Shown in pieces: positions 6,065 through 7,522 of a DNA stretch of 32,920 bases (position 1 is the stretch's first letter; the number at the start of each line of letters is the position of its first letter). Made by a program: the position numbers and the translations under genes. Below the pieces are notes generated by a model. The model was not told the origin of the DNA and did no database searches. It was given only the letters and a program-made list of their open reading frames with translations. Origin of the DNA: an uncultured Caryophanales bacterium (GTDB taxonomy: Bacteria > Bacillota_I > Bacilli_A > RF39 > UBA660); NCBI GenBank assembly GCA_946629545.1, contig CAMOXZ010000004.1, positions 1-32,920 of the forward strand. The letters are read 5' to 3'.

Positions 6065-6673
6065 CTATAACCTAGTTTTCAATTTTTTAAGTATTTTATT
6101 TTCTTCTCTAGATACCTGTACTTGACTAATACCTAGAATCTTACTAGTTTCACTCTGAGTTAATCCCTCATAATATCTAGAATATATTAATCTTTTCTCC
6201 TTAAGAGATAACTCATCTAATTCATTATTTAAGTCAAGAATTTCAGCACTAGTATTATCATAACTACTAATTTCAATTTGACTATCGTCAATTGAAGTAA
6301 CATCATCGAAAGATAATGCTTCATTAACTAAGTTCTCATCAATTTCTAAGTATAATGAAACTTCTAGATTAGTAGCTTCTCTACCTAGTTTTTGAGAAAT
6401 TATTTCTTTAGTTTTAATTATTTTGTTTTTCAAATCTACTAAATTCTTACTTACTTTTAAACTACTATTTTCTCTTATATATTTATTGACCTCTCCTACG
6501 ATATAGTAATAAGCAAAAGTAGAAAACTTAGTATCATAATTAGAATTATAATGTTTCAAAGCATCTATTAATCCAATCATAGATACTTGGTATAAATCTT
6601 CTCTATCATACTTCTTAGGATATTTACTTATAATACTATATATTAACCCATCATATTGTAAGAGTTCTTCCAT
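6065..6673 (-). CDS. Sporulation sigma-70 factor, SigF/SigG-like
   Basis: Region 2 (YDREDLYQVSMIGLIDALKHYN...FSTFAYYYIVGEVNKYIRENSSLKVSKNL), region 4 (LTQSETSKILGISQVQVSREENKILKKL); linked to spoVAC-AD-AE as sigF is to spoVA in B. subtilis. Confidence 0.88.
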   Translation of the reverse strand: MEELLQYDGLIYSIISKYPKKYDREDLYQVSMIGLIDALKHYNSNYDTKFSTFAYYYIVGEVNKYIRENSSLKVSKNLVDLKNKIIKTKEIISQKLGREATNLEVSLYLEIDENLVNEALSFDDVTSIDDSQIEISSYDNTSAEILDLNNELDELSLKEKRLIYSRYYEGLTQSETSKILGISQVQVSREENKILKKLKTRL

Positions 6674-6724
6674 TATCCTCCTTTCATAAACAATATAAAA
6701 GAAATAATAAAAAACTTCTACTCA

Positions 6725-6734
6725 TTCGACAAAA
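6725..6734 (-). promoter_or_regulatory. Candidate Spo0A box 1
   Basis: Minus strand TTTTGTCGAA, matches 0A box core TGTCGAA; upstream of sigma factor gene. Confidence 0.5.
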
Positions 6735-6750
6735 CAAGATAAAAAAAGAA

Positions 6751-6760
6751 TTCGACATTT
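6751..6760 (-). promoter_or_regulatory. Candidate Spo0A box 2
   Basis: Minus strand AAATGTCGAA, same orientation as box 1, 26 bp away. Confidence 0.45.
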
Positions 6761-6775
6761 TATATAAAATTCTAG

Positions 6776-6804
6776 TTGGGATGACCATCTTTCATTCGTA
6801 TAAT
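6776..6804 (+). promoter_or_regulatory. SigA-type promoter of small hydrophobic peptide mRNA
   Basis: TTGGGA (6776-6781) - 17 nt - TATAAT (6799-6804). Confidence 0.75.
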
Positions 6805-6835
6805 ATATTAGGAAATACAAAGTTGTTGAGTGCTT

Positions 6836-6852
6836 ACCTCCGGAAAGGAGGT
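6836..6852 (+). promoter_or_regulatory. SD-sequestering hairpin
   Basis: ACCTCC-GGAAA-GGAGGT perfect 6-bp hairpin containing the SD (GGAGG) of the ORF at 6860. Confidence 0.75.
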
Positions 6853-6859
6853 GGTGTTA

Positions 6860-6934
6860 ATGACAAAGAAAGATTTTTTAATCTCATCTTTAATCATTAT
6901 CATCTTCTTACTTATCCTACTACTTATGAAGTAA
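6860..6934 (+). CDS. Candidate type I toxin, 24-aa hydrophobic peptide
   Basis: Not in ORF track. MTKKDFLISSLIIIIFLLILLLMK*; strong SD GGAGG 8 nt upstream; charged ends flanking a single TM stretch; promoter and terminator on the same strand. Confidence 0.75.
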   Translation: MTKKDFLISSLIIIIFLLILLLMK

Positions 6935-6943
6935 TGATAATGT

Positions 6944-6975
6944 AAAAAAAAGGCACTCAAGCATAGCTTAAGTGC
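6944..6975 (-). terminator. Intrinsic terminator of antisense/dut transcript
   Basis: Minus strand GCACTTAAGC-TAT-GCTTGAGTGC then C and TTTTTTTT; one mismatch in a 10-bp stem. Confidence 0.75.
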
Positions 6976-6991
6976 ATAACCCAATTGAGGT

Positions 6992-7029
6992 GAGTACTCA
7001 ACATGCAAAAACTGAGTATTCCCTTTTTC
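6992..7029 (+). terminator. Intrinsic terminator of peptide mRNA
   Basis: GAGTACTCA-12 nt-TGAGTATTC followed by CCTTTTTCTT. Confidence 0.6.
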
Positions 7030-7039
7030 TTATGTATTA

Positions 7040-7068
7040 ATATTAACACATTTTAATATCTTATGCAA
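7040..7068 (-). promoter_or_regulatory. Promoter for antisense RNA
   Basis: Minus strand TTGCAT (7068-7063) - 17 nt - TAATAT (7045-7040), with TGn extended -10 (TGTTAATAT). Confidence 0.5.
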
Positions 7069-7069
7069 A

Positions 7070-7522
7070 TTATTTGTCTGTAGAACCAAATCCACCTAAT
7101 CTTTCACCAGTAGCATTATCATTATCAACTACTAGAAATTTAGTAAATACTACTTGTCCAATAACATCACCTTTTTTAACTTCAATATCATGATCACTAC
7201 AATTAAAATATGCAAAATAGAAATGACCATCGTTATCTGGATTACCATAATAATCACTATCAATTAATCCTACACTATTAGCAAGTATAAATCCTTTTTT
7301 AGGACCACTGCTTCTATTTAATAGTAAGAAACATTCATCAGGTTCACAATATGCTTTCAAACCTGTAGGAATTAATGTTGGTTTAATTCCAGGTGTGAAT
7401 TTTGGTATTACTATATCCTCTGCTGCTTCTACATCATATCCTGCAGCAAACTTAGTTTTTCTTACTGGTAAATTAATATGTTTGTCTTCATAGCCTTTTG
7501 CGATTTCAAATCCTCTTCCCAT
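7070..7522 (-). CDS. dut: dUTPase (deoxyuridine 5'-triphosphate nucleotidohydrolase)
   Basis: NRSSGPKKGFILANSVGLIDSDYYGNPDNDGH and GERLGGFGSTDK dUTPase motifs; GAGGAGG SD located inside nrdG. Confidence 0.9.
   Translation of the reverse strand: MGRGFEIAKGYEDKHINLPVRKTKFAAGYDVEAAEDIVIPKFTPGIKPTLIPTGLKAYCEPDECFLLLNRSSGPKKGFILANSVGLIDSDYYGNPDNDGHFYFAYFNCSDHDIEVKKGDVIGQVVFTKFLVVDNDNATGERLGGFGSTDK

Follow-up and report, generated by a model that had tools for sequence, protein, structure and literature searches.

Introduction

Type I toxin–antitoxin modules are known from Proteobacteria, Firmicutes and Tenericutes, with many families occurring in <5% of species (PMC12390103). In txpA/RatA, bsrG/SR4 and yonT/SR6 of Bacillus subtilis, an mRNA with a strong Shine-Dalgarno (SD) sequence encodes a small hydrophobic peptide and converges on a cis antisense RNA that overlaps it at the 3′ end, each RNA having a separate promoter (PMC3531473; PMC5848175); for TxpA/RatA, RNase III is involved alongside this 3′ overlap (PMC3531473). 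In aapA/IsoA of Helicobacter pylori, which has several chromosomal copies, a cis antisense RNA is directed against the mRNA of a ~30-aa peptide, and that mRNA is controlled by a 5′–3′ long-distance interaction (LDI) together with co-transcriptional hairpins that hide the SD (PMC6733600). Fst/par (RNA I–RNA II) of Enterococcus consists of convergent short RNAs with direct repeats and a shared terminator, encodes a ~33-aa peptide, and has many chromosomal homologues in Firmicutes (PMC8167048).

The layout of the B. subtilis systems, the lock, SD hairpins, cis antisense RNA, peptide size and copy number of aapA/IsoA, and the convergent short RNAs, short peptide and chromosomal multiplicity of Fst/par all have counterparts at the locus described here. 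It lies in the window, that is, the whole 32,920-nucleotide stretch of DNA that was analyzed, from an uncultured bacterium of the order RF39 (GCA_946629545.1, contig CAMOXZ010000004.1). An earlier note, made from the letters of the window, had proposed an uncatalogued type I locus at this position.

Anatomy of the locus

The locus occupies the gap between dut (7070–7522) and a SigB/F/G family sigma gene (6065–6673), both on the minus strand and both identified with clear E-values, yet under the NCBIfam curated cut-off. The sigma gene is followed by spoVAC, spoVAD, and spoVAE. The elements of the locus are as follows.

6776–6804, plus strand: promoter of the peptide mRNA, TTGGGA-17-TATAAT, sigma-70-like, 10/12 (-35 TTGGGA at 6776–6781, -10 TATAAT at 6799–6804, 17 nt between)
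6811–7029, plus strand: predicted peptide mRNA of ~219 nt, its start set by promoter spacing and a conserved GG(A/G)A, its end by the terminator
6811–6841, plus strand: leader box A, with complementarity to the two terminator-region arms of this mRNA; its final bases (6836–6841) are the anti-SD ACCUCC
6847–6851, plus strand: SD sequence GGAGG, 8 nt from the ATG at 6860
6860–6934, plus strand: ORF of a 24-aa single-transmembrane (TM) peptide, MTKKDFLISSLIIIIFLLILLLMK, a putative toxin, from direct reading and pN/pS
6987–7029, plus strand: mRNA terminator with box C (6987–7002), right arm, and T-run, the alternative partner of box A (stem ~6992–7022, T-run 7023–7029)
6944–6975, minus strand: terminator of the antisense RNA, from the scan (hairpin 6953–6975, T-run 6944–6952)
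6944–7033, minus strand: predicted antisense RNA of ~90 nt, a putative antitoxin, antisense to the 3′ portion of the mRNA
7040–7068, minus strand: antisense promoter TTGCAT-17-TGn-TAATAT, a weak copy (-35 at 7068–7063, -10 at 7045–7040)

In a promoter scan of 1.8 kb, TTGGGA-17-TATAAT was the top sigma-70-like site (10/12), exactly where the earlier note had placed the plus-strand promoter. The RNA of ~215 nt that it had described came out at a predicted 219 nt, against a family median of 228 nt, and the 24-aa ORF, the strong SD 8 nt upstream of the ATG, and the plus-strand terminator at 6992–7029 were all read as it had stated. The minus-strand terminator (6975–6944) was recovered as the sole terminator in the scan; viewed from the plus strand, its hairpin stands right after the ORF and carries no T-run. 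The 66-aa minus-strand ORF that had been said to occupy the ORF list here was also present among ORFs of ≥60 aa, at 6808–7008.

The minus-strand promoter, too, is where the note had placed it: both hexamers, the 17-nt spacer, and the TGn are present, yet the hexamers agree with the consensus at 3/6 and 4/6 positions (7/12 plus TGn), below the scan threshold, and the promoter is therefore weak on its own. Relatives have a much stronger promoter at the matching position of the antisense strand, and the elements of the proposed convergent ~90-nt antisense RNA are in place, in a layout conserved throughout the family. At the window copy, read-through from dut could also provide the antisense strand. 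The antisense RNA of this copy is without the 5′ hairpin that other copies have.

A multi-copy family in the order

A DNA search found homologous copies in many genomes of the same genus; matches in other families of the class were short and AT-rich, and they were set aside. We then used a covariance model (R1), which was built from 15 copies aligned on the antisense strand and contains no peptide sequence; the window copy, but not the wider family, was in the training set. Among the 15 copies, the two main hairpins of the antisense RNA retained pairing through compensatory changes at 9 of 20 pairs, and the terminator stem was preserved in the same way. R1 matched the window at 7050–6944 (85.3 bits, E 1.7e-12, for a copy belonging to its training set).

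Of the 241 genomes examined in the order, 182 had matches to R1. These represent 73 of 92 genera, and the count in a single genome reached at least 14, the number of candidates scored. In the window's genus, 35 of 39 genomes had a match. The lack of conservation in relatives that the note had named as refuting it is clearly contradicted. In a class-wide sample, 38 of the rows listed were genomes of the family-rank group to which the window belongs; R1 was present in 23 of these, and in 1 of ~258 genomes outside the group. The exception (genome G429, locus L224), from another family of the class, carries the whole module close to the end of a contig, which may reflect transfer or a mis-binned contig. 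Copies were dispersed, and at several loci they stood in tandem. As judged from these sequence searches, the window locus is not isolated; it belongs to an order-wide family with multiple copies.

Two more modules are present in the genome from which the window comes (G000), on C11 and C7 (L222 and L223, ~1240–1690). They are of another subfamily: their RNA boxes differ from those of the window copy, and their peptides are MTKREKSYFFIILLLFILIGILLFK and MKEREKLLFLIILLLLTVVILLVK. Five loci (L077, L084, L095, L100, and L101) encode peptides of the form M.KKDFLI...IIFK next to a variant 3′ region, CACCAC...GTGGTG with GGCAAGCACTA...TCTCGC, that is missed by R1; by these features they are a further subfamily.

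The promoters also recurred. Among 71 non-redundant units, 77% of mRNA promoters scored at least 9/12, compared with 5% of shuffles, and the -10/-35 pair kept a constant position before the GG(A/G)A start box. For 72 members the antisense promoter consensus was TTGNNN-17-TGnTATTAT, with 83% scoring at least 10/13 against 5% of shuffles, TGn in 96%, and a 17-nt spacer in 60 of the 72. At L002, L004, L023, L024, and L028, a terminator-like hairpin has the antisense -35 (TTGAAA or similar) in its loop, and its T-run is the promoter spacer; such a hairpin could be an insulator of the antisense promoter from read-through.

The peptide and its linkage to the antisense RNA

Linkage between peptide and antisense RNA was assessed in both directions. 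An SD with a hydrophobic ORF of 20–34 aa was found at 44 of 54 R1 matches, the ORFs starting 69–89 nt, and nearly all 79–84 nt, before the antisense 3′ end. By this filter, the other 10 antisense copies had no intact ORF; L022, L039, L056, and L066 (151–270) are antisense RNAs of this kind, without an intact upstream peptide ORF. Such copies fit both decay of a dispensable element and stand-alone antitoxin remnants. Conversely, 264 Gb were scanned with a DNA pattern for an SD followed by M-x-K-K-D-(F/L)-L-I, and among the matches listed, 84 of 104 pattern ORFs had R1 on the opposite strand, 78–95 nt (mostly 80–82 nt) downstream, where chance would give <1%; several of the 20 without R1 were cut by contig ends or had variant hairpins. 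The records listed were titled as uncultured gut Bacilli, Tenericutes, Mollicutes, Erysipelotrichaceae, and similar MAGs, and the named carriers among them included Candidatus Coprosoma and Candidatus Onthousia. Candidatus Coprosoma is assigned to order RF39 (PMC8035907), which is predicted to contain species that sporulate and species that do not (PMC10868615).

Selection on the peptide is purifying. In the 24-aa set, pN/pS was 0.25 and lowest in the peptide frame. For 43 non-redundant ORFs of 27 aa, pS was 0.57 and pN 0.21, a ratio of 0.37, whereas the other two frames gave 0.55 and 1.75; the 24-, 29-, and 30-aa sets were similar, the 30-aa set being the weakest (pN/pS 0.63). All 75 distinct peptides had a charged N-terminus followed by a run of I/L/V/F almost to the end, and their hallmark is K-K-D-F-L-I and then an I/L run. 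The locus thus has the two genes by which type I modules are generally recognized, one for a small hydrophobic peptide and one for an antisense RNA complementary to its mRNA.

Predicted folding of the mRNA

RNA 6811–7035 folded at -68.2 kcal/mol (z = -5.85; equalled by none of 200 shuffles), and the antisense RNA fold had z = -3.3. These z-scores argue that the locus is not a product of chance, for which the family evidence is far stronger. The main feature of the mRNA fold is a 17-bp duplex that the 5′ leader forms with the region immediately before and inside the terminator. The SD and AUG were paired in silico in both the nascent 60-nt RNA and the full RNA, with a predicted unpaired probability of 0.00–0.02 for the SD, and in the predicted cofold with the antisense RNA the SD stayed inside the leader hairpin; it was hidden in every predicted fold, whether nascent, full-length, or antisense-bound. 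Across the family, hiding of the SD exceeded that in shuffled-leader controls (p = 4e-8).

Duplexes of leader and terminator had an energy of -37.8 kcal/mol with a unit's own terminator, -29.1 with those of other units, and -17.4 with shuffled ones. Pair counts on motif-anchored rows of 63 units gave 89% paired over the inner 14 bp, with 87 double compensatory changes versus 42 in permuted data, and 88% paired over the outer 8 bp, with 27 versus 9; neither count was reached by any of 300 permutations. Since the permutation keeps base composition but not shared ancestry, this excess is indicative and is not a probability. Sliding the register by one or two bases lowered pairing to 35–64%. The leader is predicted to match the whole terminator, with the terminator loop left out. 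A second candidate pairing, between the leader and the post-ORF hairpin, was weaker (own -16.8, others -13.6, shuffled -10.3 kcal/mol), and we make no claim for it. Prediction and covariation together point to a conserved SD-sequestering leader, as the earlier note had suggested, and to the translation-limiting mRNA fold that is usual, though not universal, in type I systems.

The site between dut and the sigma gene

The gap between dut and the sigma gene measures 396 bp in the window (6674–7069). In about ten genomes of the same genus it is 80–120 bp and module-free (L194, L197, L199, L200, L204, L207, L209, and L216–L218), and the region before the sigma gene is recognizable in them. From these short gaps it follows that the cassette either arrived at this site or was lost many times elsewhere; comparison of the sequences suggests that it was probably inserted.

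Family-wide, 12 of 75 copies lay within 300 nt of a tRNA, as against 4.5% of random positions, and at 11 of the 12 the tRNA 3′ end faces the antisense promoter. Modules just 3′ of a tRNA are L002, L004, L042, L048, L049, L075, L105, L108, L120, L123, and L144; at tRNA-adjoining modules the tRNA is on the antisense strand, ~75–105 nt away. The module at L003 adjoins the end of tmRNA.

Comparison with known families

The peptide gave nothing near the cut-off in Pfam or NCBIfam, searches that have little power for such short queries, and no family matched in PHROGs and no sequence in PDB. Rfam models run on the loci returned tRNA, tmRNA, and one unrelated sRNA, and no type I family; with these libraries and their short queries, no sequence relationship of the peptide or antisense RNA to TxpA or BsrG appeared. 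A literature search combining RF39 with type I toxin–antitoxins retrieved no paper. The description of the locus as uncatalogued stands for Pfam, NCBIfam, PHROGs, and Rfam, T1TAdb and a 2010 survey of type I systems being outside the comparison, and within those four libraries the family is apparently undescribed. One exact pattern had no match in IMG/VR, and the window copy had no blastn match among phages and plasmids; a phage or plasmid origin was set aside on these grounds, although the negatives are weak because the queries were narrow.

In layout, the family resembles TxpA/RatA and BsrG/SR4: the antisense RNA converges on the mRNA, overlaps its 3′ end, and is predicted to start and stop at a promoter and a terminator of its own. 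However, TxpA (59 aa) and YonT (58 aa) are about twice as long as the 24–30-aa peptides here, the RatA/txpA overlap is ~120 nt, and the present modules are scattered around the chromosome, the phage searches having given no match. With aapA/IsoA it shares a 5′–3′ long-distance interaction in the mRNA, here predicted and accompanied by covariation. That system belongs to another phylum and has another peptide, AapA being set apart from ours by description; its SD is trapped by an anti-SD in the LDI, whereas here the leader anti-SD would alternate between the SD and a 3′ box, and the antisense RNA here covers the 3′ part of the mRNA. In par, direct repeats are at both 5′ ends and one bidirectional terminator serves both RNAs, whereas here each RNA has a separate terminator, the T-run of the post-ORF hairpin being on the minus strand only, and the mRNA passes through the antisense terminator hairpin. 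The proline in the helix and acidic C-terminal tail of Fst/Lpt peptides (PMC8309996) are absent. Mechanistically, the family appears to stand between TxpA/RatA and AapA/IsoA, with no sequence match to either in the libraries searched. The type I layout proposed in the earlier note, consisting of convergent 3′-overlapping RNAs, a sequestered SD, and a TM peptide, proved to be conserved family-wide.

Discussion

That the locus and its family are real we hold with very high confidence. We consider it probable that the locus acts as a type I toxin–antitoxin-like cassette and is a copy of a multi-copy, lineage-specific family. For this reading we draw on the anatomy, conservation, coding selection, covariation, linkage, and module-free neighbor site described above, all taken from sequence; transcription, RNase III decay, toxicity, and the order of events are what we infer. 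The plus strand would produce an mRNA of ~220 nt for a 24–30-aa membrane peptide. In the nascent mRNA the SD would be hidden first in the leader hairpin ACCUCC/GGAGGU, and then, once the mRNA is complete, in a fold that is held shut by base-pairing between the leader and the entire 3′ terminator region, through 14–17 bp of inner and ~8 bp of outer pairing. The minus strand would make a hairpin-rich RNA of 90–120 nt, complementary along its full length to the 3′ portion of the mRNA. Its binding would unlock the long-distance pairing, the anti-SD hairpin would re-form, and the long mRNA–antisense duplex would be offered to RNase III, so that the peptide is not made. Loss of the antisense RNA or of its promoter would allow translation of processed mRNA, and the cell's own membrane would then be harmed by insertion of the peptide.

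A broader version holds that these are self-spreading ~290-bp toxin–antitoxin cassettes found order-wide, in which the RNA lock also provides the inverted ends, and copies lodge next to tRNA 3′ ends or in the gaps between genes. Subfamilies differing in box sequences would then be separate toxin–antitoxin specificities inside a single small genome. We regard this version as unlikely, if still worth stating.

The most serious alternative is that the peptide is a small membrane protein without toxicity, such as a regulator or subunit of some membrane complex, and that the antisense RNA limits its dose; the RNA anatomy would be the same. Single-TM proteins are common among bacterial micro-proteins, selection on the peptide is purifying, and its toxicity is putative. 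However, many divergent, tandem, and dispersed copies per genome would be unusual for a housekeeping subunit, the distribution is patchy in close relatives and the module sits between unrelated genes, and it is toxins that typically have translation locked twice over and this heavily; we therefore give this explanation little weight. Less probable again is a small selfish or repetitive MITE-like element with inverted ends, in which ORF and antisense RNA are passengers or transposition aids. The ~22–27-bp inverted ends formed by leader and terminator, the insertion between dut and the sigma gene, and the enrichment at tRNA 3′ ends, nearly always in one orientation, are what such an element would give, but 5′–3′ pairing of the mRNA accounts for the inverted ends, and constraint acts on the ORF, on the SD, and on the two promoters with their spacing. 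The MITE-like reading and a toxin–antitoxin role are in any case compatible. That nothing special is present, with the minus hairpin serving as terminator of dut, which ends at 7070, and with a fortuitous plus-strand ORF of just 24 aa beside a weak antisense promoter, is scarcely credible and, like pure chance, is ruled out at the family level by the R1 distribution, by the joint recurrence of peptide and antisense hairpins at many loci away from dut, and by the module-free dut sites of same-genus genomes.

On the toxin–antitoxin reading, a class of module that is hard to predict and has a small known range would be represented by one family that is present in three of every four genomes sampled from a large gut order of uncultured bacteria, often with several copies per ~1.2-Mb genome. 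The family would offer hundreds of natural variants in which to follow the co-evolution of leader, SD, terminator, and antisense RNA, and it raises the question of why small, reduced gut genomes retain such modules.
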